Origin: Myxococcales bacterium
GTDB taxonomy: Bacteria > Myxococcota_A > Polyangia > Polyangiales > Polyangiaceae
Direction: 5' to 3'
NCBI GenBank assembly: GCA_012514535.1
Contig: JAAZAA010000135.1
Span: 1-49,006 of the forward strand
DNA: 49,006 nucleotides
Each line of letters starts with the position of its first letter. The stretch's first letter is position 1. The position numbers were made by a program, and so were the translations under genes. Positions 1,600 to 17,021 of the stretch are shown here, one piece after another. The notes beneath the pieces are model-generated. The model did not search any database. It was given only the letters and a program-made list of their open reading frames with translations, and was not told where the DNA came from.

Positions 1600-1682
1600 A
1601 TGAGACCTTGGTAGAGAATTTGTCGAGCAAGGTTTTGGGTGTCGCCCATCGACGGACTACCGTGCATCAGAAGGGGGAGGAC

Positions 1683-2858
1683 ATGTCTGATACGCGAGAT
1701 CCGCGGGAAGGAAGGGGCAACGAGACGGACCTTCAGGTCTGGGCGAGCTGCATCGCGCACGATTTCGGCAACCTGATCACCCTCATGAGCTGCCACGCGG
1801 AGCTCTTGGTCCGCTCCCTGAAGCAGGGTTCCCAGGAGCAGCGGGACGCGATCGCCGTACGCAGCGCTGCGCGGCGCGCCAAGCACCTCCTCGCCCGCTG
1901 GGTCGACTTCTACAAGAAGACGCCGCTGCGCAGCGAGCCCGTCGACCTGGTTCGCTTCTTCGACGAGATCGTGGCGCTGGCGCGCCCGGCCCTCGGCGCC
2001 GGGATCCAGATCACCGCGAAGGTCGAGACGAAGGCGCTGGCGGTCCTCGCGGATCGAGAGCATCTCGAGCGCTGTCTCCTCAACCTGCTCCTCAACGCGA
2101 AGGACGCGATGCAGGGCGTGGGGACGATCTGTGTGCGCGCTCGGGCCGCCCACTCCGCGGACGGCGCTGCTGGAGAGCTGGTCTCGATCGAGGTCACGGA
2201 CAGCGGCCCAGGGGTCCCGCTCGAGCTGCGAGAGCGCATCTTCGAGCCTTCTTTCACGACCAAGGCGCACGGCTCCGGCCTCGGGCTCGCGATGGTGAAG
2301 GCCTACGTGACGGAGAACCGTGGACACGTCGCCGTGAGCAACGCCGATGATTCCGGTGGAGCGTGCTTCGTCCTCCATCTCCCCCGCGCGCGTCTCGGCG
2401 AGGGGCGAATGGAGAGCCAGGCCCCCCGCTCCGCCGAGCGCACCACGCTGCTGCTCGTCGAGCCCGATCTCCGGCTGGGTCCAGCCCTCCAGCGGCTCCT
2501 GGAAGGTTCGGGGTACGACGTGCGCCTGGTCTCGAGCGCCGGGGAAGCCCTGCTCATGGCGGAACGCTCCGGGGAACGGGTCGAATGCGTCGTGATGGAT
2601 GGCCCCCTGCCCTGGATGTCTTGTGAAGAGCTGGGGGTCCGCCTCAAGCAACTGTGGCCCGATCTCCAGACGATCGCGCTCGCCTGGTCGGAGTTCGAGT
2701 CGAGGGGCGGCGTCGACCGGATCGTGATCAAGCCCTGTCACGGCTCCGTGTTGCTCCGGGAGCTGGCCGAGCTGCGCGCGGCGCGTCCCAAGCAAGCGTC
2801 CTACACGCGGATCAAGGTGGCGCGCCCCATCGCCGTGGCGGGGAACGACGGAAGCTGA
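1683..2858 (+). CDS. Soluble hybrid histidine kinase with C-terminal receiver domain
   Basis: Autophosphorylating sensor kinase, 391 aa. The start is ATG 1683, preceded by a strong GGGGGAGG; an upstream in-frame start at 1608 lacks this. H-box: AHDFGN with H26. N-box: LLNLLLNAKDAM near 132-143. G1 DSGPGV near 173. G2 GSGLGLAM near 197. A receiver domain occupies about 255-370, with probable phosphoacceptor D306 (VVMDGPLP) and K350; its acidic pocket is altered to EPD. There are no TM segments and no PAS/GAF domain, so the input must come through a partner protein or the REC itself. The gene converges on the sigma54 regulator gene with 13 bp between stops, which suggests a cognate pair. The partnership is inferred from proximity only. 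Confidence 0.9.
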   Translation: MSDTRDPREGRGNETDLQVWASCIAHDFGNLITLMSCHAELLVRSLKQGSQEQRDAIAVRSAARRAKHLLARWVDFYKKTPLRSEPVDLVRFFDEIVALARPALGAGIQITAKVETKALAVLADREHLERCLLNLLLNAKDAMQGVGTICVRARAAHSADGAAGELVSIEVTDSGPGVPLELRERIFEPSFTTKAHGSGLGLAMVKAYVTENRGHVAVSNADDSGGACFVLHLPRARLGEGRMESQAPRSAERTTLLLVEPDLRLGPALQRLLEGSGYDVRLVSSAGEALLMAERSGERVECVVMDGPLPWMSCEELGVRLKQLWPDLQTIALAWSEFESRGGVDRIVIKPCHGSVLLRELAELRAARPKQASYTRIKVARPIAVAGNDGS

Positions 2859-2871
2859 CGTTCCGTGCGCC

Positions 2872-4245
2872 TCATTCGAGGCCGTGACGCTTCAGAATGC
2901 GCCTCAGGTTCGAGGGATCGAGACCGGCCACCCGCGCGGCCTCCGAACGGCGACCACCGACTCTGTTCAAGAGCTCCTTCATGTACTCTCGTTCGAAGGC
3001 AGTCTTGGCGGCGCGGAAGGGCTGCAGCTCGTCGGGTTCCCGGGTCGGCGTCTCGGGAGGCACGTCGACCTCGTGCAGGGTGATCCGATCTCGAGCCAGG
3101 ATGAAGGCCCGCTCCAGCGTGTTCTCGAGCTGGCGTAGGTTCCCGCGCCACGGCTGCTTCGCGAACAGGTCCATCACGTCTGGGTCGACGGACGGCGCGG
3201 GACGGTTCAGGCGCCGCGACAACTTCTCCAGAAAGTAGTGGACCAGCGAAGGGAGGTCCGCGATCCGCTCGCGGAGCGCCGGGACCCGCAAGCGAAAGAC
3301 GTTGATCCGGAAATAGAGGTCTTCGCGGAACGTGCCCTCGGCGACCGCGCGCTCCAGGTCTCGGTGCGTCGCCGCCACGATGCGGACGTCGACCACGCGG
3401 CTGGTGTCGGAGCCCACCGGACGAACTTCGCCTTCCTGGAGGACGCGCAGGAGGCGCGTTTGCATCGGCAGCGACAGCTCCCCCACCTCGTCGAGGAAGA
3501 GCGTGCCGCCCGACGCCGTCTCGAACAGCCCGCGTCGTGCCGTTGCCGCGCCCGTGAAGGCCCCCTTCACGTGACCGAACAGCTCGCTCTCCAGGAGATG
3601 TTCGCTGAGCGCGCCGCAGTTGATGGGGACGAACCGCCCGCCGCGGCGCGCGCTCTGGTCGTGGATGGCGCGTGACACCAGCTCCTTACCGGTGCCCGTC
3701 TCGCCGACGACCAGGGCCGTGGCGTCCGTCGGAGCCACGGCCGCGATCATCTGACGGAGGTCCTTCATGGCCCGGGTGCTCCCCGCCAGGATCCCTTCGC
3801 AGGAGGCGTCGAGCTCGCGCCGGAGCTCCCGGTTCTGACGCGCCAAGCGCACGTGCGTCACCGCGCGGAGGCAGGTCGCCGTGACGATGTCCGTCGGCTC
3901 GAAGGGCTTCGTCAAGAAGTCGAAGGCGCCGTGTTTCATGGCGCGGACCGCCACCTCGATGTTGCCCCGCGCCGTCATGATCACGACGGGGAGATCGGGC
4001 GCCAGGCTCTTCGTTCGCTCCAAAAGCTCGAGGCCGTCCAGGCCGGACAGGTGCAGATCGACCAGCAGCACGTCCGGCGGTCCGACGTTGGCCAGGTGCG
4101 CGAGCGCTTTCTCGGCCGAGTTCACGTACTGGGTCTCGAACCCCGCGGCGTCGAGGAGTCGGCACAAGGTCTCCGCGATCCCGGGCTCGTCGTCGACGAC
4201 GAGCAAGCTCCCGACGGTCGACTGGTTCTCTTCGCGTTCGGTCAA
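2872..4245 (-). CDS. Sigma54-dependent response regulator (NtrC/AtoC family)
   Basis: Activator of sigma54 RNA polymerase, 457 aa with the standard three domains. REC is about 12-125 with acidic pair D18/D19, phosphoacceptor D63, T91 and K113. AAA+ is about 152-385 with Walker A GETGTGKE (181-188), the sigma54-contacting GAFTGA loop (228-233) and Walker B TLFLDE. A Fis-type helix-turn-helix lies at about 430-455. The start is a TTG at 4245 with GGAGG sequences just upstream; no ATG fits closer to the REC domain. It lies 25 bp downstream of the PKS stop on the same strand, so it is probably the last gene of the PKS operon. It runs tail-to-tail with the hybrid kinase. Whether it controls the PKS is inference; I saw no clear -24/-12 element upstream of the PKS. 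Confidence 0.93.
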   Translation of the reverse strand: MTEREENQSTVGSLLVVDDEPGIAETLCRLLDAAGFETQYVNSAEKALAHLANVGPPDVLLVDLHLSGLDGLELLERTKSLAPDLPVVIMTARGNIEVAVRAMKHGAFDFLTKPFEPTDIVTATCLRAVTHVRLARQNRELRRELDASCEGILAGSTRAMKDLRQMIAAVAPTDATALVVGETGTGKELVSRAIHDQSARRGGRFVPINCGALSEHLLESELFGHVKGAFTGAATARRGLFETASGGTLFLDEVGELSLPMQTRLLRVLQEGEVRPVGSDTSRVVDVRIVAATHRDLERAVAEGTFREDLYFRINVFRLRVPALRERIADLPSLVHYFLEKLSRRLNRPAPSVDPDVMDLFAKQPWRGNLRQLENTLERAFILARDRITLHEVDVPPETPTREPDELQPFRAAKTAFEREYMKELLNRVGGRRSEAARVAGLDPSNLRRILKRHGLE

Positions 4246-4270: not shown

Positions 4271-7200
4271 CTACTTTCCCGGTGGGGCCTGAAGGGTGGC
4301 TCCCTGCGCCGCGGCGGTCTTGCCGGGGACGAGCGGGGGCGACCCGACGAGCTTCCTCACGACGAGCTCCGCTGTCCAGGCTGGATCCTTGTCGACGTGG
4401 AAGTGGTCGCCCGAGGCGCTGGTGACGATCTCGAACGGGCCCTCGGTGTAGTCGGCCCAAGCTTCCATGCCGTAGAAGAACGTCCAGAGGTCGTTCTTCG
4501 CACGGAGCACGGTGATGGGGGTGCGGAGCGCGATCTGCCGAGAGGCGGAGTAGTCCGCCATTCGTTCGAAGTCCCGGCGGACGCGAGGCAAGAGCTCGCG
4601 GCGGAGCGCCGCGCTGCGGCGCAGATCACCGACGTGCGGGTGACCGATGACGTCCAGGACGTCCACCAGCTTGTCGTCGCCGAGCAGGTTGGCGTTCGGT
4701 GCCAGGTAGAGGTGGGGCGCTGCCGCACCCGTGACGAAGAGATGTACCGGTGAACGCCCGCCGCGCGCCGCCAGCTCGCGCGCGACCTCATAGGCGAGGA
4801 GGGCGCCGAGCCCGTGCCCGAAGAAGGCGAAGGGCTCGGGCCGAGCGCTCGCCTCGAGGGCCCGCGCGATCGCTCGAGCCTGCTGGGGCAGCGCCAGGTG
4901 TGCCTCCTGGGGAGGGGCGATCCGGGTGATCGCCGCGTGGCGGGCCACCTCCGAGTCGAGCAGACGGCGTCCCGGATCGCTGCCGAGCGCCGCTGGGAAG
5001 CAGTACAAACGCACGGACGCGTCACCGCGAGCGGGCTCGTCGACGAACCACGGGGTGGCGTCGACATGCTCGTAGACGGGCTCCCGTCGCGCCTCGACGT
5101 CCATGGGGCGCGCCAAGTGCGCGAACTCCGCGGCGCCCGCGCGGAGGCGCCCCACGTCGGATCGTCCGAGGTCGTGAGCCACCGCCGCGGCCACGGTGCG
5201 GGCGAGGTAGGTCCGGTGCGTCTCCACGAAGTAGTGATGAACGTCCAGCAGATGGAGCGCGAAGGGTCCCGTCGAGTACTCGCGCCAGGCGGTCATCGAG
5301 CTCGGCGCGGCGAAGAGGTCCCGCTTGGCGGCGAAGCCCGTGATCGGGCAGGAGAGCGGCGCCCTCCGCGAGAAGTCCCGGCCGTAGGTCGCGACGGCTT
5401 CGAAGTCGGCTCGGAGGGTCGGGACGAGCAGACGGCGCATCTCGTCGTCTTCCAGCAGCGCGCGCGTCCCCGTGAAGTCGAGGAGCTGGAGGACGTCCAA
5501 AAACTTCGGCTCGGGCTGCTCATGGAGCAGCGCCGACTGATAGAGGTGAGGCGCCATGGCCCCGCCCACGAAGAGGTGCGCTGGTTCGTGGCCGCGATCA
5601 CGGAGACGGACCGCGACCTCGTACATCAGGATCGCGCCCATGCAGTGGCCGTAGAAGGCGAAGGGCACGTCCGTGAGGGGCAGGAGCTCCCGGCAGATCT
5701 CGTCGGCCATGGTGGAGACGTCTCGGTACGCCGCTTCGCCGATCCGACGACCTCGTCCGGGGAGGTTGATGGCGCTCACCTCGAAGTCCTCGGGGACCTC
5801 CTGAGCCCAGTCGTGGAACGCCGTGGGCGCGCCGCCCGCGTAGGGGAAGCAGATCAGACGGACCTGGGGCTGCTCCTTGATTTCGGGCGTGACGATCCAG
5901 CGCGACGTGCCCGTGGGGGCGGCGGGACGTGCGGTCGCCCCCGCCGGGGGCTCGGTGCCGACGGACGTCGACGGCTCGCTCTCCGTGATCTCGGCGCCCT
6001 CGGGGGATGGAGGCGGCGCGCTGCTCGGGCGCGCGCTGGCGACCAGCGCCTCCGTGAGGCTGTTCAAGGTCGTGCGCTCGAGCAGGGTCGCCACGGGGAG
6101 AGAGAGCCCGAGCTCCTCCAGCTTGCTCCGGAGCTCGAGGGCCATCAACGAGTCGAGGCCGAGGGCGGACAGCAGGGTCTCCGGATCGAGCTTGCTCGGG
6201 GAGGTGCCGAAGATGCGCGCGACGCGGGCTCCGATGGCCTCCTTGGCCAGGCGGGGGCGATCCGCCGGGCTCGCGCTCGCCCAGGCCTCCGCAAAGGCGG
6301 CGTCACCCTGACCCGCGCGAGGGGTCTCCTCGCGTGTCCCTGCGACGAGGGAGAAGCGCGGGCTGTCCTCCTTGTGATGATACTTGAGCCAGCGCTCCCA
6401 GCGCAGCGGGGAGAGGGTGACCTGGGTCGTGCCGAGGGCGAGCTCGCGGCCGAGGGCGTCGAGTCCGAGGCGGGTGTGGAGAGCCGTCAAGCCGCCGGCT
6501 TCGAGGTGCCGTCGGATGGTCGGCTCGGCCTGGGCCATGCCCACGTTGGCGATGAGGCCCCAGTTGACGGTGAGGGCAGGGAGGCCCAAGGCGCGTCGGT
6601 AGTGGGCGAGCGCGTCGATGAAGGCGTTGGCGGCGACGTAGTTGCCGCTGCCGTGGTTGCCCAGGACGGAGGTCACCGAGGAGAACAGCACGAAGTGGTC
6701 GAGCGGCGCGCTTCGCGTCGCGCGATGGAGCGCCCAGGCGGCTTCCAGCTTCGAGACCGCGACGCGCTCGTAGCGCTCGAGGGTCTGCTTCTTCAGGAGA
6801 TCGTCGTCCAGGATGGCCGCCGCGTGGAACACGCCCCGGAGAGGCGGGAGGTCGGCCCCGAAGCGCGCCACGAGGGGCGCGAGCGCCGCCTCGCTCGAGA
6901 TGTCGAGGCGTTCGTCGTGGACCTGGACGCCGCGGCGCCCCAGCTCCTGGACGAGCTCGTGGGCCTCGGGCGTGCTCGCGCCGCTGCGACTCAGCACGAC
7001 CAGGTGCCGGGCGCCGCAGGCGGCGAGCCACTGGAGGAGCTCACGACCGAACCCCCCGAAGCCGCCCGTGATCAGGTAGCTGGCGTCGCTCGCGAACCGG
7101 GGGACCACGGACCGCTCGAGGGCGGCGGGGGGCTGGCTCAGGGAGATCACGACCTTGCCCACGTGTTTGGCGCTCGCCATGTGCTGGAACGCGGCGCTCA

Positions 7201-10200
7201 CCTCCTCCGCAGGGAAGCCGCGGAGGGGGAGGGGAGTGAGCTCTTCGTCTTCGAACAGCGCCATCACCTCGCGGAGCAGGCGGCCGGCGTGATCGGGTCG
7301 CTGCGCGAGCAGCCGATCCAGGTCGACGCCGTGGATCGACGCGTTTCGATCGAGCACGCGCATGCCGAGCCGGTGGTTCCGATCGATGTCGACTTTGCCG
7401 AGCTCGAGGAAGCGCCCGTAGTCCGCGAGGACGTCCAGGCTGCGGTCGATCATGTCGCCCGCCAGTGAGTTGAGGACGAGATCGACTCCTTTGCCTCCCG
7501 TGGCGTCCAGGACCTGCCCGACGAAGTCGAGGGAGCGGGAGTCGAACGCGTCGGCGATGCCGGCCCGACGAAGCAGAGAGCGCTTCTCCTCCGAGCCGGC
7601 GGTGGCGAGGATGCGAGCGCCCACCCGCTGGGCCAGCCGCACCGCCGCCTGGCCCACGCCGCCGGTCGCAGCGTGGATGAGCACGCTCTCACCGGGCTGC
7701 ATGCGACCGAGCTCGGAGAGGGCGTAGTGCGCCGTGACGAACGCCAAGGGCAGCGCCGCGGCCTGGTCGAAGCTCAGCCCCCGCGGCTTCACGACGACGA
7801 GTCGAGCGTCCGTGACGAGCCGCCGGCGGAACGCGTGTCGAGCGAAGGCCACCACCTCCTGCCCTGGCGTCAGATCGCGGACGTCCCGGCCGACGCGGAG
7901 GACGCGACCGGAGCACTCCATGCCGAGCGCGCCGCCCCAGAAGTTGTTCTCCATGGCGCTCTGGGGGAGGAGGCCGGTCGCCTTCATGACGTCCTTGAAG
8001 TTCAGCCCCACGGACTCCACCTCGATCTCCACGCCCCCGGGGGGGAGATCCGGCGAGGCGGCCTCTCGAAACACGAGGCCGTCGAAGCTCCCCTTCCGGA
8101 CGCACTCGAGGGCGTAGTTCGGCGGGGGCGCCGCCGGCTCGAGGAGTGTCGCGTCGTCGTCGCGGAGCGCGAAGCGGTGCACGTAACGCCGTGTGCCACG
8201 CAAGGCGATCTCGTCCTCGGCGCTCGGGGACGCGAGCTCGCGGGCGAGCTGCTCCACCTCGCTCGGGACGGGTTCGGCGCTCAGGTCGACGATCGTCGGC
8301 TGGAAGAGCGGGAGCTCGTTGCCGATCACGCGGGACAGGCCCCAGAGGGGAGCCTGGGCGGGAGAGAGCGACGTGTCGTCCTCGACGACGGGGAACGCGC
8401 CCGCCGTGACGAACCACAACCTCGCCGGGGTGGGGTGGTCGCCCAGGGTTTGCACCAGATGGAGCGCGCTCCCGTAGGTCCGAGCATGGCTCGCGCGGAG
8501 CTCGAGGGTCGTCGTCTCTTCTCCGGCGACGACGTCGAGGCCCCAGAGATGGACGACCCCTGCCAGGGCTCGGTGGGCGCCCAGGCGGTCGACGAGCTCT
8601 CGGAAGTGCTCGGGGTTGCCGGGATCGAGCCGGAAGGACCCGTCGGGCGCTTCCTCGAAGTGCTGGCCGGGTCGTACGAACACCGCGCTGTCTCCGGCGC
8701 GCGTGAGGAGCTCGCCCAGGCGCGCGGCGATCCCGCGCTCGTCCGCGAGCAGGACCCACGTGGCCGCTCCGGTTCGTTCCGCATCGGACGCCGTGCGCTC
8801 GAAGCGAGCCTCTTCCCAACGGTACGCGTAGGTCCAGCCGCGAACCTTCTCGGGGATGGGGGCGTCGGAGGCGGTGAGGTTCTGGCAGGTGAGCCCCTCC
8901 GCGAGGGCGACGAGCTCCCCGTCGTCGTCGTAGATGAAGACGTCCCCCGTGAAGGAGCGATCGCCGTCACGCTCGCGGAGGAGGCAGTGGGAGCGGAGCG
9001 TGGCCCCTGCGGGGCGACGCAGCACGAAGCGCTCGATCCGGACCGGGAGATAGACGTCGCCGCGCATGTCCGCGTCTTCCCCGTCGATGCCGAGGGTGCA
9101 GAACAGGGTGTGCAGGCACGCGTCGAGGAGGGCGGGATGAAACAGGTAGTCGCTCTGCTGATCGGCCACCTCCGCGGGCAGGACGACGTCCGCCAGCGCC
9201 TCACCGCGGCGCCGCGAGACGCTCGTGATGCCCTGGAACGCCGGGCCGTAGACGAGGCCGATGTCCTGGAACAGGGGATAGACGTGCTCCGCGGGGATCT
9301 GCTCCGGGAGCCGAGCCCGGACGGCGTCGACGTCGAGGCGCGGGAACGCTCGTCCGTCGAGGGGGGTCAACGTGGCGGACATGTGCCGCGTCCACGAGGT
9401 GTCGGACTGCGCCCTCGAATGGATCTCCAGCTCGCCGTGCCGGACGACGGTCTGGAGGCGCACCGTCTCGTCCTTCGGCCAGAACAGGGCGTTTTCGAAG
9501 CGCACCGATCGCAGGCAGACGTCCCCGCGTTGGCGAAGCCGCTGCGCTGCGGCGAACGACATCTCCAGGTAGCCGGCGCCGGGGAACACCGGAGCTTCGC
9601 GCACCAGGTGATCGTCGACGTAGTCGAGCTCGGTCGCCTGGCTCTCGAAGACCTGGTCGACCATGGATAGGCGCGAGCCCAAGAGCGGGTGAGCCTCACC
9701 TTCCGCGGCGAGCTGGAGGCTCGCGCCGGAGCCGAGTCGCCGCGCGGCGGACTCCTGAGGCTCGTCCCAGTAACGCTGGCGTTGCCAGGGATAGGAGGGG
9801 AGCTCGCAGGGCGGCTCGACGCGGGCGCCGTGGGGTCCCGACGGGTCGTGTCCCTTGCAATAGAGTTCCCCGAGCGTCCCGAGCAGGGTGCGGCGGTCGT
9901 CCTGGTTGCGCCGCAAGGAAGGCAGGCTCGAGCCCCGCCGGGTCCCGAGACACTCGAGCACCGAGCGGGCGAGGGCCGGGTGCGCGCCGAGCTCCACGTA
10001 GTCGACGACGCCGGCGTCGATCATGCGCTCCATGGCCTGGTGGAAGACGACGGTGTCGCGCACGTTGTGCCAGAAGTACTCCGCGTCGAGCTCGGGGCCT
10101 TCGACGAGCGTCCCCCGGATCGTCGAGTAGTAAGGGATGCGCGCGGGGCGCGGAGTGATGCTGGCGAGGGAGGACAGGAGCTCCTCTCGGAGCGGGTCCA

Positions 10201-12439
10201 TGCCGGGGCTGTGATAGGGGACCTGCACCTGCAGGAAGCGAGCGAAGATCCCCTCGCTCGTCAGCTCCCGTTCGATGTCCTCGAGCACCTCCCGCTTGCC
10301 TGCGAGGCTGACGCTGGAGGGGCTGTTGATGGCGCCGACCGCGACGAACTCTTCCCGACCCCGCACGAGCTCGCGCGCACGCGCCTCCGTGACCCCGACC
10401 GCCAGCATGGTCCCCGTGCCCTCGGTGCGATGCTGCAGCCTGCTCCGATGCACGATGACCGTGGCCGCGTCCTCGATGCTCAGGATGCCCGCCGCGTAGG
10501 CCGCCGCGGCTTCACCGACGCTGTGTCCGGCGATGACTCCAGGGACGATGCCCCAGGAGCTCCACAGGCGGAACAACCCGACCTGGAGCGCGAAAATGCA
10601 TGGCTGCGCGATGCGCGTCTCCTGGATGCGCGACGCCGCTTCCTCGCGAAGGAGCTCCTCCAGGACGGACCACCCGGCGCGCTCGCGCACCAGGGCGTCG
10701 ACCTCTTCGACGGCAGCCCGAAAGATCGGCTCCGAGCCGAGGAGGTCGCGCCCCATCCGCCACCACTGGGGCCCCATCCCCGTGAACAGGAAGCCGAGCG
10801 GGGCCGCGCCGTCCCCGGGGGCGGCCCCGCGGGCCACCCCCGCCGGATCGTCCTCCTGGGCCGCCATGCGCAGCTTCTCGAGGAGCTCCTCGCGATCCGC
10901 GGCGACGATGCCGAGGCGCTCCTTGTGGTGACTGCGACGTCGCGCGAGGGTGTAGGAGACGCGAGAGAGCGGCAGCTCGGCGCCGGCGCCCGTCTCGAGG
11001 TAGTCGGCGAGTCGCTGCGCGTTGGCGGCGAGGGCGGCTTTGGAGTGGGCGGAGAGCGGGAACAGGAGCGCGGTCGGGGCTGCGTCTCCTTCGAGGACCT
11101 CGGGAGCCTGCGGCGCCGGCCGCGGCCCCTCCTGCAAGATGGCGTGGGCGTTCGTGCCGCCGAAGCCGAAGGAGTTCAGGCAGGCGAGGCGAGGGCCGGG
11201 CACGTCGGGCCAGGGCCTGTGGGACGTGACGACCTCGAGGGCGAGATCCTGGAAGTCGATCTGGGGGTTGGGGGTGTGGAAATGCAGGTTGGCGGGGAGC
11301 TCACCGTGCTTCAGGGCGAGGACGACCTTGAGCAGACCGGCGACGCCCGACGCCGACTCCGTGTGCCCGATGTTCGATTTGACGGAGCCGATCAGACAGG
11401 GCTGCCCCGCAGGACGCCCCTCGCGCAGCACGCGGCCGAGCGCGTTCACTTCGATGGGATCTCCGACGGGTGTGCCCGTGCCGTGGGCCTCGACGTACTG
11501 GATCTCGGAGGGGGCGATGCCGGCGCGCGCCTGCGCCTCCCGCAGGAGGGCCTCCTGGGCCTCCCCGTTGGGGACCGAGATCCCCTTGGTGCGGCCGTCC
11601 TGGTTCGAGGCGGTGCTGCGGATGATCGCGTGGATCTCGTTCCCGTCGCGCAAGGCGTCGTCGAGCCGCTTGAGCAGGATCACCCCTGCGCCCTCCGCCC
11701 GGACGTAGCCATTGGCGCCCGCATCGAAGGAGTGGCAGCGCCCGTCGGGCGACAGCATGGAGGCCTTGCTCATGGCCACCGTCATCTCGGGCCGCAGGAT
11801 GACGTTCACGCCGCCGGCCAACGCGGCGTCGCATTCCCCGTGCAGCAGGCTCTCGCAAGCCAGATGCAGCGCCACGAGCGACGACGAGCACGCCGTGTCC
11901 AGCGCGACGCTGGGGCCGCGCAGGTCGAAGAGGTACGAGATGCGGTTGGCCGCGATGCTCATGCTCGTGCCGGTGCCCGTGTACGCGTCGATGAGCTCGC
12001 GCGAGGAGAGCTGCATGTGTGCGTAGTCGTGGATGAAGAGCCCCACGAAGACGCCGGTCTTGGACCCCCGCAGGGCGGCGAGCGGCTCACCCGCGTGTTC
12101 GAGGGCCTCGTAGGCCACCTCGAGGAGGAGCCGCTGCTGCGGATCGACGTGCACCGCCTCGCGAGGAGAGATCCCGAAGAACTCCGGGTCGAAGAGGTCG
12201 ATGCCGTCGAGGAAGCCGCCCCAGCGGACGTACATCTTCCCCGGCTTGGCTCGATCTTCCGAGAAGAGCGCCTCCTTGTTCCAGCGATCGGGAGGAATCT
12301 CACCGATGGCGTCCACCCCATCGCGCAGGAGGGTCCAGAACTCGCCCGGGTTCGTCACGCCGCCGGGGAAGCGACAGCCGAGCCCGACGATGGCGATGGG
12401 TGACTGGGAAACGTGCGATCGGCCAGAAGACTGTGTCAT
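4271..12439 (-). CDS. Single-module fully reducing type I PKS: KS-AT-DH-psiKR-ER-KR-ACP-TE-TE
   Basis: Large polyketide or fatty-acid-like synthase, 2722 aa from ATG 12439 (an in-frame GTG lies at 12538). KS about 12-440: C184 in DTACSSS, H319, H359. AT about 548-860: S640 in GHSVGE, VPYHS at 741-745. DH about 915-1190: H944, with the usual Gly of HxxxGxxxxP replaced by Glu, and D1106. Structural pseudo-KR about 1200-1430. ER about 1450-1770: GGVGQA. KR about 1785-1965: GGFGGFG, LDD, S1920/Y1934/K1897; LDD predicts B-type stereochemistry. ACP: S2097 in GLDSL. Two related thioesterases follow at about 2193-2425 and 2475-2700. TE1 has C2266 in GHCMG with D2374/H2402. TE2 has G2543 in GHGLG, retains D2650 and H2679, and has lost the FPYAGG and LPGRGRR motifs. 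There is no N-terminal docking domain, so it probably acts alone and iteratively. Extender choice and product are unknown. Confidence 0.95.
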   Translation of the reverse strand: MTQSSGRSHVSQSPIAIVGLGCRFPGGVTNPGEFWTLLRDGVDAIGEIPPDRWNKEALFSEDRAKPGKMYVRWGGFLDGIDLFDPEFFGISPREAVHVDPQQRLLLEVAYEALEHAGEPLAALRGSKTGVFVGLFIHDYAHMQLSSRELIDAYTGTGTSMSIAANRISYLFDLRGPSVALDTACSSSLVALHLACESLLHGECDAALAGGVNVILRPEMTVAMSKASMLSPDGRCHSFDAGANGYVRAEGAGVILLKRLDDALRDGNEIHAIIRSTASNQDGRTKGISVPNGEAQEALLREAQARAGIAPSEIQYVEAHGTGTPVGDPIEVNALGRVLREGRPAGQPCLIGSVKSNIGHTESASGVAGLLKVVLALKHGELPANLHFHTPNPQIDFQDLALEVVTSHRPWPDVPGPRLACLNSFGFGGTNAHAILQEGPRPAPQAPEVLEGDAAPTALLFPLSAHSKAALAANAQRLADYLETGAGAELPLSRVSYTLARRRSHHKERLGIVAADREELLEKLRMAAQEDDPAGVARGAAPGDGAAPLGFLFTGMGPQWWRMGRDLLGSEPIFRAAVEEVDALVRERAGWSVLEELLREEAASRIQETRIAQPCIFALQVGLFRLWSSWGIVPGVIAGHSVGEAAAAYAAGILSIEDAATVIVHRSRLQHRTEGTGTMLAVGVTEARARELVRGREEFVAVGAINSPSSVSLAGKREVLEDIERELTSEGIFARFLQVQVPYHSPGMDPLREELLSSLASITPRPARIPYYSTIRGTLVEGPELDAEYFWHNVRDTVVFHQAMERMIDAGVVDYVELGAHPALARSVLECLGTRRGSSLPSLRRNQDDRRTLLGTLGELYCKGHDPSGPHGARVEPPCELPSYPWQRQRYWDEPQESAARRLGSGASLQLAAEGEAHPLLGSRLSMVDQVFESQATELDYVDDHLVREAPVFPGAGYLEMSFAAAQRLRQRGDVCLRSVRFENALFWPKDETVRLQTVVRHGELEIHSRAQSDTSWTRHMSATLTPLDGRAFPRLDVDAVRARLPEQIPAEHVYPLFQDIGLVYGPAFQGITSVSRRRGEALADVVLPAEVADQQSDYLFHPALLDACLHTLFCTLGIDGEDADMRGDVYLPVRIERFVLRRPAGATLRSHCLLRERDGDRSFTGDVFIYDDDGELVALAEGLTCQNLTASDAPIPEKVRGWTYAYRWEEARFERTASDAERTGAATWVLLADERGIAARLGELLTRAGDSAVFVRPGQHFEEAPDGSFRLDPGNPEHFRELVDRLGAHRALAGVVHLWGLDVVAGEETTTLELRASHARTYGSALHLVQTLGDHPTPARLWFVTAGAFPVVEDDTSLSPAQAPLWGLSRVIGNELPLFQPTIVDLSAEPVPSEVEQLARELASPSAEDEIALRGTRRYVHRFALRDDDATLLEPAAPPPNYALECVRKGSFDGLVFREAASPDLPPGGVEIEVESVGLNFKDVMKATGLLPQSAMENNFWGGALGMECSGRVLRVGRDVRDLTPGQEVVAFARHAFRRRLVTDARLVVVKPRGLSFDQAAALPLAFVTAHYALSELGRMQPGESVLIHAATGGVGQAAVRLAQRVGARILATAGSEEKRSLLRRAGIADAFDSRSLDFVGQVLDATGGKGVDLVLNSLAGDMIDRSLDVLADYGRFLELGKVDIDRNHRLGMRVLDRNASIHGVDLDRLLAQRPDHAGRLLREVMALFEDEELTPLPLRGFPAEEVSAAFQHMASAKHVGKVVISLSQPPAALERSVVPRFASDASYLITGGFGGFGRELLQWLAACGARHLVVLSRSGASTPEAHELVQELGRRGVQVHDERLDISSEAALAPLVARFGADLPPLRGVFHAAAILDDDLLKKQTLERYERVAVSKLEAAWALHRATRSAPLDHFVLFSSVTSVLGNHGSGNYVAANAFIDALAHYRRALGLPALTVNWGLIANVGMAQAEPTIRRHLEAGGLTALHTRLGLDALGRELALGTTQVTLSPLRWERWLKYHHKEDSPRFSLVAGTREETPRAGQGDAAFAEAWASASPADRPRLAKEAIGARVARIFGTSPSKLDPETLLSALGLDSLMALELRSKLEELGLSLPVATLLERTTLNSLTEALVASARPSSAPPPSPEGAEITESEPSTSVGTEPPAGATARPAAPTGTSRWIVTPEIKEQPQVRLICFPYAGGAPTAFHDWAQEVPEDFEVSAINLPGRGRRIGEAAYRDVSTMADEICRELLPLTDVPFAFYGHCMGAILMYEVAVRLRDRGHEPAHLFVGGAMAPHLYQSALLHEQPEPKFLDVLQLLDFTGTRALLEDDEMRRLLVPTLRADFEAVATYGRDFSRRAPLSCPITGFAAKRDLFAAPSSMTAWREYSTGPFALHLLDVHHYFVETHRTYLARTVAAAVAHDLGRSDVGRLRAGAAEFAHLARPMDVEARREPVYEHVDATPWFVDEPARGDASVRLYCFPAALGSDPGRRLLDSEVARHAAITRIAPPQEAHLALPQQARAIARALEASARPEPFAFFGHGLGALLAYEVARELAARGGRSPVHLFVTGAAAPHLYLAPNANLLGDDKLVDVLDVIGHPHVGDLRRSAALRRELLPRVRRDFERMADYSASRQIALRTPITVLRAKNDLWTFFYGMEAWADYTEGPFEIVTSASGDHFHVDKDPAWTAELVVRKLVGSPPLVPGKTAAAQGATLQAPPGK

Positions 12440-12615
12440 GCGCGTCTCGTTCGAAATGGACTCGCTCGGAGAGCTGGATGCTCCACCGGGGCCATTCGGG
12501 TAGATGGGTAGACTCGTCCGGTTTACTAAGTCAGGCACCCTACTGAACTGGCATGTTGTGCGTCAATGGCGTTGTGGGTCTTCGTTCGGGGTTGGCAATT
12601 TGCGGATCGGTTGCG
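12440..12615 (-). promoter_or_regulatory. PKS leader and candidate promoter
   Basis: Read on the minus strand, TTGACG (12566-12561) is followed 18 bp later by TAGGGT, a weak -10. Transcription from it would leave a leader of roughly 90 nt before the ATG at 12439. The TTGACG is also the intact half of a degenerate copy of the neighbouring palindrome, so a repressor or activator bound there would compete with or contact polymerase. No strong Shine-Dalgarno is visible, only GAGACG. The promoter is tentative. Confidence 0.3.
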
Positions 12616-12851
12616 TTGATTTCCGTCAATTGGTCGAAGTGCACGACGGGTGCGCGGCTGAGAAATTCTTTTGCCCGGCGTTTGCGTTGACGTCCGTCAA
12701 GTGGGCTGTCGGTTTCGTTGATATTCGTCAATGGAGCGACGTGGCGCGTGGCTTCGTGAGAAGGTTTCGTTGATGTTCGTCAATCGTGAGGAGGCGCGAG
12801 GGAGCGCGTTCGGCGGCTCTGAAAGGCTCGGGGCGCGTTGACGTTCGTCAA
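12616..12851. repeat. Array of five palindromic 14-mers (TTGAyGTTCGTCAA) upstream of the PKS
   Basis: Cores lie at 12616-12629 (TTGATTTCCGTCAA), 12687-12700 (TTGACGTCCGTCAA), 12718-12731 (TTGATATTCGTCAA), 12770-12783 (TTGATGTTCGTCAA) and 12838-12851 (TTGACGTTCGTCAA). Two are perfect 6+2+6 inverted repeats; in the others one arm is intact. Most are preceded by TTTCG or TTGCG. A degenerate sixth copy keeps CGTCAA at 12561-12566. Start-to-start distances are 71, 31, 52 and 68 bp. These are not a common multiple of three, so the repeats are not a coding repeat. The layout looks like a multi-site operator for a dimeric DNA-binding protein in the PKS/chemoreceptor intergenic region. The cognate regulator is not identified. 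Confidence 0.75.
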
Positions 12852-15333: not shown

Positions 15334-15542
15334 GGATCTGAGGATCCGCAGCCAGCGCGGATCTTTGCACCGGCGGTGGCGCCTAAGCGCTCGTTCGAGG
15401 GCCTGCGTGCCCGTGAGCTCGATCAGAACTCGCGTTCACGGGCATTCGGCCCTTGGACGTGAGCAGGACGAATCGCCAGAATGCCCGTTGGTGCGAGGCG
15501 CGAGGGAGCGACGCCCTCCGGGGTCGCTGTCGGAGTCGGTGC

Positions 15543-17021
15543 ATGGTGATCAATCGGATCGATCGAGGTTGGGCAGCTGCGGCGACGATTTCCTGTGCGC
15601 TCGCCGTCGGCGGAGCGGGCGCCTGCGGCGGCGAAGCGACGGGGGGAGCCGCGGCGACCGGCGGGGGCAGCAACCCGAGCGGGACGGGCGGAGCAGCGGC
15701 GGGGGGCGGAGCGGGAGCGCCAGGGAGCACCTCCGGGGGCGCAGGGCCGGGCGGCGGCGGCGGCGGGTCGTCCACCGAGGAAGAGTGGTACCTCAGCGAT
15801 CTGTGTGACACCGGCGACGCGACGAACGCGTGGGGGCCCGTGGAACGGGATCGGAGCAACGGGGAGCAGGCCGCCGACGACGGTGGGCCGATCATCCTGC
15901 AGGGGCGGGTGTACAGCAAAGGGCTCGGGATGCATGCGCCCGCGAGCATCGGCTACGCCCTCGGGGGACAGTGCTCTCGTCTCCAGGCGGTCGTCGGCAT
16001 CGACGCGGAGATGAAGAACGCGGGCTCCATCGTCTTCGAGGTGTGGGGCGACGGCGACCTGCTCCTGGCGACGGAGACCCTCACGGGGGCGGGCCCGGCG
16101 GAGTCCATCGACCTGGACATCAGCGGAGTGCAGGAGCTGCGCCTCGTGCTGAACGAGGACGGCGGCAACGGGAGCGATCACGGGGACTGGGCCGACGCGC
16201 GGGTGACGTGCTCGGCGCGCCCGGCGGAGCTGTGTCCGCGCGTGGACCCGCCGATCCCCACGGTGCCCGGCTACGAGCTGGTCTGGTCCGACGAGTTCGA
16301 CGGGGACGGGCCTCCGGATCCGGCGAACTGGAGCTTCGAGCGGGGCTTCGTGCGCAACGAGGAGCTGCAGTGGTACCAGGAGGACAACGCCTGGCAGCAG
16401 GCGGGTTTCCTCATCATCGAGGGGCGACGAGAGACCCTCGATTTTTCGGACGTGGACCGCAGCGGCTGGCGGGATTGGGCGCGCAATCGCACGGTGGCGG
16501 AGTACACCTCGTCGAGCTTGCACACCCGCGGCAAGCAGAGCTGGCAGTACGGTCGCATCGAGATGCGCGGCCGCATCGTCGCGGCGGAGGGCCTGTGGCC
16601 CGCCTTCTGGACCCTCGGCAACGATGGCGAGTGGCCCAGCAACGGCGAGATCGACATCATGGAGTTCTACAAGGGGCGCATCCACGCGAACTTCGCGGTC
16701 GGGACGGAGACGCGCTGGCAAGCCCGCTGGGACTCCTGGAACCGCGAGGTGTCGAGCTTCGAGGGGACGGACTGGGACGCGAAGTTCCACGTGTGGCGCC
16801 TCGACTGGGACGCCGACAGGGCCTGCATCTTCGTCGATGACGAGCAGGTCAACTGCACGGATGTCGACGACATGCGCAACCCGGACGGATTCGCCCCCTT
16901 CCGTCAGCCCCACTACGTGCTCCTGAACCTCGCCATCGGCGGCAGCGGCGGCGGCGCGGTCTCCGGGGGCACCCGGTTCCCGACCCACTACGTGATCGAC
17001 TACGTCCGGGTGTACCAGTAG
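15543..17021 (+). CDS. Secreted glycoside hydrolase family 16 lipoprotein with NPCBM domain
   Basis: Predicted endo-beta-glucanase (laminarinase/lichenase type), 492 aa. A short hydrophobic signal ends in a lipobox-like GAGAC with C28, then about 50 residues of Gly/Ala/Ser linker. An NPCBM-like carbohydrate-binding module spans about 80-223 (KGLGMHAPASIGYAL, FEVWGDGDLL). The GH16 catalytic domain is about 243-492 (LVWSDEFDG start). The catalytic signature is EIDIME: nucleophile E369, D371, acid/base E374. It ends in the usual DYVRVYQ beta-strand. ATG 15543 is preferred over upstream 15453 because the signal peptide starts there. The family call is strong; the exact glucan (1,3- or 1,3-1,4-beta) cannot be read from sequence. 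It likely acts at the cell surface on external polysaccharide. Confidence 0.92.
   Translation: MVINRIDRGWAAAATISCALAVGGAGACGGEATGGAAATGGGSNPSGTGGAAAGGGAGAPGSTSGGAGPGGGGGGSSTEEEWYLSDLCDTGDATNAWGPVERDRSNGEQAADDGGPIILQGRVYSKGLGMHAPASIGYALGGQCSRLQAVVGIDAEMKNAGSIVFEVWGDGDLLLATETLTGAGPAESIDLDISGVQELRLVLNEDGGNGSDHGDWADARVTCSARPAELCPRVDPPIPTVPGYELVWSDEFDGDGPPDPANWSFERGFVRNEELQWYQEDNAWQQAGFLIIEGRRETLDFSDVDRSGWRDWARNRTVAEYTSSSLHTRGKQSWQYGRIEMRGRIVAAEGLWPAFWTLGNDGEWPSNGEIDIMEFYKGRIHANFAVGTETRWQARWDSWNREVSSFEGTDWDAKFHVWRLDWDADRACIFVDDEQVNCTDVDDMRNPDGFAPFRQPHYVLLNLAIGGSGGGAVSGGTRFPTHYVIDYVRVYQ

Follow-up and report, generated by a model that had tools for sequence, protein, structure and literature searches.

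A Cys nucleophile paired with an Asp placed after beta7 allows the thioesterases (TEs) of ObiF1 (obafluorin beta-lactone) and SulM (sulfazecin beta-lactam) to carry out transthioesterification and to close a four-membered ring; in ObiF1 the C1146S exchange moves the outcome toward hydrolysis (PMC6668435, PMC11298585). Tandem TEs are found in the NRPSs of lysobactin, teixobactin, arthrofactin and other Pseudomonas lipopeptides, with both domains being catalytic in the case of lysobactin and teixobactin (PMC8949500, PMC11735501). In fungal clade V NR-PKSs, a SAT domain with an inert GxGxG motif is retained and is reported to be essential, probably for the integrity of the PKS (PMC10401856). The type II TEs RedJ, RifR and BorB are stand-alone enzymes with a Ser nucleophile and an editing role. 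The PKS described here resembles the NRPS tandems in ending with two consecutive TEs in one megasynthase (TE1 and TE2, with a putative division of labour), but it differs from them in being a PKS and in having, in place of two active TEs, a TE1 with a Cys nucleophile and a TE2 without any. Like TE2, the fungal SAT has a Gly at the nucleophile position and is nevertheless retained, although it is an N-terminal acyltransferase domain, unrelated in position and fold.

Within the stretch of DNA analysed (49,006 nucleotides, hereafter the window), whose source contig (C38) comes from a 5.77-Mb genome of the family that also contains Sorangium and Byssovorax, a type I PKS gene occupies 4271..12538 of the minus strand as one uninterrupted reading frame (2755 aa when counted from its GTG start; alternative ATG start at 12439). 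Its third-position GC is high (0.90), as expected of a real gene, and the whole genome holds one further large KS-bearing ORF. The encoded protein has the domain order KS-AT-DH-ER-KR-ACP-TE1-TE2, in which (all on the minus strand) the KS (11276..12403; Pfam PF00109/PF02801), AT (9848..10792; PF00698), DH (8870..9691; PF21089/PF14765), ER (7145..8041; PF08240/PF00107/PF13602), KR (6548..7084; PF08659) and ACP (6044..6235; PF00550, motif GLDSL) are followed by TE1 (5189..5860) and TE2 (4394..5011), both of them members of PF00975 (145 and 90.6 bits, respectively, against a cut-off of 26.4).

The initial annotation, made from the sequence alone, had described the two TEs as homologous, with a Cys in the GHCMG motif of TE1 and a Gly in the corresponding GHGLG motif of TE2, and our analysis bears this out: the domains share 35% identity across 233 residues, the nucleophile of TE1 is Cys2299 (codon TGC, 5642..5644), and the equivalent position of TE2 is taken by Gly2576 (codon GGG, 4811..4813). 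The earlier residue numbers are lower by 33 (C2266 corresponds to C2299, D2374/H2402 of TE1 to D2407/H2435, and D2650/H2679 of TE2 to D2683/H2712), which is consistent with a count from the ATG at Met34; the codon positions given there are all correct. TE1 thus has the full triad of a competent TE (Cys2299; Asp2407, 5318..5320, aligned with the RifR Asp; His2435, 5234..5236), while TE2 keeps the acid and His positions (Asp2683, 4490..4492; His2712, 4403..4405) but has neither Ser nor Cys as nucleophile. The reported loss of FPYAGG and LPGRGRR from TE2 holds for the window (FPAALG stands in place of the former, and the LPGRGRR loop is deleted), but does not extend to the Byssovorax TE2s described below, which retain LPGR.

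The proposed likeness of both domains to type II TEs was also recovered, as RedJ (3qmv), RifR (3fla) and BorB (6vap) are closest to TE1 and TE2 in sequence and fold, and the best matches among solved structures are RedJ (3qmw; E 2e-39 for TE1 and 2.4e-20 for TE2) and RifR (E about 3e-34 and 2.5e-17). The AlphaFold2 model of the window TE2 (pLDDT 89.7, pTM 0.88) is a complete alpha/beta hydrolase fold that superimposes on RedJ with Z 27.8 (rmsd 2.3 over 226 residues), and the TE1 half of a tandem TE1-TE2 model matches RedJ with Z 31.8. The pTM of the tandem model (0.88) suggests that the two domains are placed in a defined way relative to each other; the PDB matches listed for it included no chain with two TEs, which we do not count as evidence. 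Unlike the type II editing TEs, which stand alone and act in trans, TE1 and TE2 are fused in cis after the ACP within a single ORF.

Relatives were sought in 184 genomes of the order, in 379 genomes of the phylum (by pattern), in 318 genomes of the class (by profile) and in a collection of 84,980 species (by pattern and tblastn). The DNA-pattern scan for the Cys motif, in which Leu codons were covered only in the form NTG and which also matched unrelated sequences, served as a source of leads only; a contig scan with the window sequence alone as query gave no match, and one with an alignment as query then succeeded. At least seven further tandem-TE PKSs were detected (eight proteins with that of the window), a number that is a lower bound, since the scans are pattern-dependent. 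Draft MAGs are among the genomes. They come from Enhygromyxa salina SWB005 (L057/L063) and SWB007 (L062), a third Enhygromyxa genome (L170, in which TE1 is cut by the contig end), a Byssovorax MAG with two such genes (L035/L137 and L036), the Polyangia genome G408 (L171) and a 3-kb contig binned as Ramlibacter (L061, 1-3083), which holds the closest relative of the window tandem. The rest of the L061 synthase was sought in its Ramlibacter-named MAG and not found, which makes this bin assignment doubtful. As Enhygromyxa belongs to the Nannocystales, the TE1-TE2 pair spans orders. No match came from the two other genomes in the same genus as the window, and in the class-wide profile search a tandem with Ser in TE1 was not noticed among the four candidates scored per genome.

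The Cys, Asp and His of TE1 are invariant in the alignment of the eight tandem TE1s, which fits the view of TE1 as a type II-like enzyme whose nucleophile is a Cys. The nucleophile position of TE2, on the other hand, is occupied by Gly in four proteins (the window and the three Enhygromyxa), by Asp in the two Byssovorax proteins, by Asn in L171 and by Cys in L061 alone, so that seven of the eight TE2s lack a Ser or Cys nucleophile, as the term pseudo-thioesterase in the initial annotation implied. For the Byssovorax TE2s, an enzyme with an Asp nucleophile (epoxide-hydrolase style) was considered and set aside, as the G408 relative has Asn there. The Asp/His pair of TE2 is kept in seven of the eight proteins; in E. 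salina SWB007 the Asp has become Ser and the His Gln, and the domain is still present despite the loss of the entire triad. Recurrence in seven other proteins argues against chance, and, judged from these sequence comparisons, the Cys-TE/pseudo-TE pair is a conserved design across distant relatives, not a mutation or a sequencing error.

Concerning its ancestry, the tree placed the tandem TEs and the PKS-fused single Cys-TEs (those of So ce26 and Pseudomonas capsici among them) on one side of a branch and the Ser type II TEs on the opposite side (93/90; the Ser type II side was supported at 100/97 with added sequences). The TE1 and TE2 domains of the window type formed a cluster (98/97, falling to 69/95 once more sequences were added), and in a topology test the arrangement holding all eight TE2s together was not rejected (p-AU 0.65) and beat the tree from the free search; the TE2s may go back to one duplication or to more than one. 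Since the L061 TE2 keeps GHCLG and a full Cys triad, the ancestor of TE2 was probably a Cys-TE. Stand-alone Cys type II TEs were also encountered in Ktedonobacteria and in a Polyangiaceae genome (L066, 9935-10756; L113, 9971-10798; L060, 3109-4077; motifs GHCMGA and GHCVGS), and the placement of those from Ktedonobacteria on the Ser side of the tree indicates that Cys arose more than once.

Like TE1, the PKS-fused single Cys-TEs have their Cys at the C-terminus of a PKS, but they differ in lacking a TE2. Five were available for comparison (Sorangium So ce26, G456, Pseudomonas capsici, Byssovorax C159 and Burkholderia stagnalis). The So ce26 protein (Sorangium cellulosum, L037, 3428-9916) has the order FAAL-ACP-KS-KR-ACP-TE, with no AT domain detected, and the plasmid-borne PKS of B. 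stagnalis (L178, 364-7854) ends in a Cys-TE with GHCIGG and a lid insertion; a stand-alone type II TE with Ser comes after it. The lid segment, taken as the stretch from the conserved Pro before the lid to the lid helix, measures 36, 36, 37, 42 and 42 residues in the five single Cys-TEs. It spans 21-22 residues in every tandem TE1 (eight of eight), and comparable lengths are seen in three stand-alone Cys-TEs (22) and in most Ser TEs (21-23 in 75 of 79). An insertion of 14-21 residues is therefore present in 5/5 single PKS-fused Cys-TEs and in 0/8 tandem TE1s (p 0.0008, with relatedness ignored and probably two to four independent events), in a comparison that covers few independent lineages and was made after the alignment had been seen. 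From this reciprocal presence of a lid insertion or a TE2, we infer that TE2 may do the job of the enlarged lid.

On the most economical reading, the acyl chain would pass from the ACP to Cys2299 of TE1 by transthioesterification and would then be released by TE1 through its Cys-Asp-His triad, while TE2, which without a nucleophile would not form the usual acyl-enzyme, would be kept as a folded partner that most likely caps or orients TE1 and its thioester intermediate, as the enlarged lid loop would do in the PKS-fused Cys-TEs that have no TE2. The activity of TE1, the acyl-S-Cys step and the capping role of TE2 are inferences from what the sequences show (the duplication, the Cys of TE1, the nucleophile loss in TE2, the recurrence in eight proteins, the retained TE2 sequence and predicted fold, and the reciprocal pattern of lid insertion or TE2). 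We give an even chance to the reading as a whole, with TE1 off-loading via acyl-S-Cys and with TE2 kept as a pseudo-thioesterase whose capping or positioning of TE1 stands in for an enlarged lid. The idea that TE2 gates chain length, also raised in the initial annotation, finds no support in these data.

A point against TE2 being a cap only is that the Asp and His are kept in six of the seven nucleophile-less TE2s, hinting at residual general-base chemistry. TE2 could then still be a catalyst without a covalent step, with its His-Asp pair serving as general base for the cyclisation, dehydration or hydrolysis (by activated water) of chains that are bound to the ACP or have been released by TE1. 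We consider this explanation unlikely, but the retention of these residues in most TE2s keeps it in play: at only 24-44% identity between lineages, just 22 of the 245 TE2 columns agree in seven or more of the eight sequences, and the Asp and His columns belong to these, while the nucleophile column varies freely. The same columns may, however, be structural, the TE2 of E. salina SWB007 was kept after losing both residues, and the occurrence of Gly, Asp or Asn at the nucleophile position does not point to a single chemistry.

It was also suggested in the initial annotation that TE1 may release its product as a strained ring. TE1 does share with ObiF1 and SulM a GXCXG-type Cys (GHCMG), a catalytic Asp at the RifR-like position after beta7 (D2407) and a type II-like ancestry, and the last modules of several relatives (both E. 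salina proteins, both Byssovorax proteins, G408, So ce26 and P. capsici) carry KR as their only reductive domain, leaving a beta-hydroxyl from which a strained lactone could form, with TE2 serving to exclude water from the beta-hydroxyacyl thioester. For the window this is a distinctly poor prospect: ObiF1 and SulM belong to NRPSs with a single TE and no TE2, they are farther from TE1 in sequence and fold than RedJ and RifR (Z 24.8-25.4, against 31.8 for RedJ, the nearest structures being type II hydrolases), and the Gln-Cys-Asn motif of SulM is absent from TE1, which reads His-Cys-Met. Moreover, the last module of one single Cys-TE relative has no KR, the module of L061 contains ER-KR, and that of the window contains both DH and ER, so that a beta-lactone would here require skipped reduction. 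Since the window module and L061 carry an ER, a beta-lactone is not the default expectation, and the product of the window's fully reducing single module is more likely a free acid formed by hydrolysis, or a lactone on a distal hydroxyl. We put forward with considerable doubt the broader idea that the pseudo-thioesterase is an external lid, i.e. that PKS Cys-TEs shield their acyl-thioester either by an enlarged lid loop or by a dead duplicate TE and thereby steer a hydrolase scaffold toward cyclisation, with strained lactones as possible products, and away from hydrolysis.

TE2 could also be a functionless decaying duplicate, one that does no harm at the C-terminus and hence disappears only slowly. 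In its favour, the TE2s differ more from each other than the TE1s do in each pair compared (34% identity against 49% between the window and L061; 59% against 81% between the two Byssovorax proteins), the dN of TE2 is 1.3-2.6 times that of TE1, and one TE2 lacks the entire triad. Even so, none of the eight proteins, which span at least two orders, has a TE2 that is out of frame or substantially shortened, its fold in the window is predicted to be intact, and dN/dS is below 1 in the Byssovorax pair (0.31 for TE2, 0.14 for TE1) as well as between the two E. salina strains (0.57 and 0.48), although dS is high and GC-biased, and near saturation in most pairs compared; we therefore regard simple decay as improbable. 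A sequencing or assembly error, or a mutation confined to one strain (as Ser at both positions in homologues would have indicated), is ruled out, as independent genomes agree on Cys in TE1 and show Gly, Asp or Asn at the TE2 position, none has Ser at both sites, and the codons found at the nucleophile positions (GGG, GGC, GAT, AAC and TGC) differ in a manner consistent with real divergence.

The genes flanking the PKS include a sigma-54-dependent response regulator (2872..4245, minus strand; PF00158/PF00072/PF02954) that starts 25 bp past the PKS stop codon, a histidine kinase-like gene (1608-2855, plus strand), a kinase fragment, a chemotaxis-type receptor and an NPCBM and GH16 domain protein (15453-17018, plus strand; possibly a secreted glucan-active enzyme), and no second PKS gene was seen among them. 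Upstream of the PKS, five perfect copies of the near-palindrome TTGACGNNNNTCAACG form a probable operator array (12614..12851, 238 bp, minus strand), with only ten perfect copies being present genome-wide. These copies possibly resemble FNR/FixK-type or enhancer-type operators and might serve the adjacent sigma-54 response regulator, which is a possible cognate regulator of the PKS.

In the full-text literature searched (mostly outside subscription journals) we found no description of a PKS Cys-TE/pseudo-TE pair, and, allowing for a possible prior mention, the combination looks new; its two elements were known separately, tandem TEs from NRPSs and Cys-TEs from a small number of ring-forming NRPSs. 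The series that leads from an intact Cys triad, through the loss of the nucleophile, to the loss of the whole triad makes the role of a pseudoenzyme within a megasynthase testable, with the single Cys-TEs and their lid insertion as a natural control. Furthermore, the motif GHC[MLI]G followed by a second TE offers a handle for genome mining of unusual chain release in myxobacteria.
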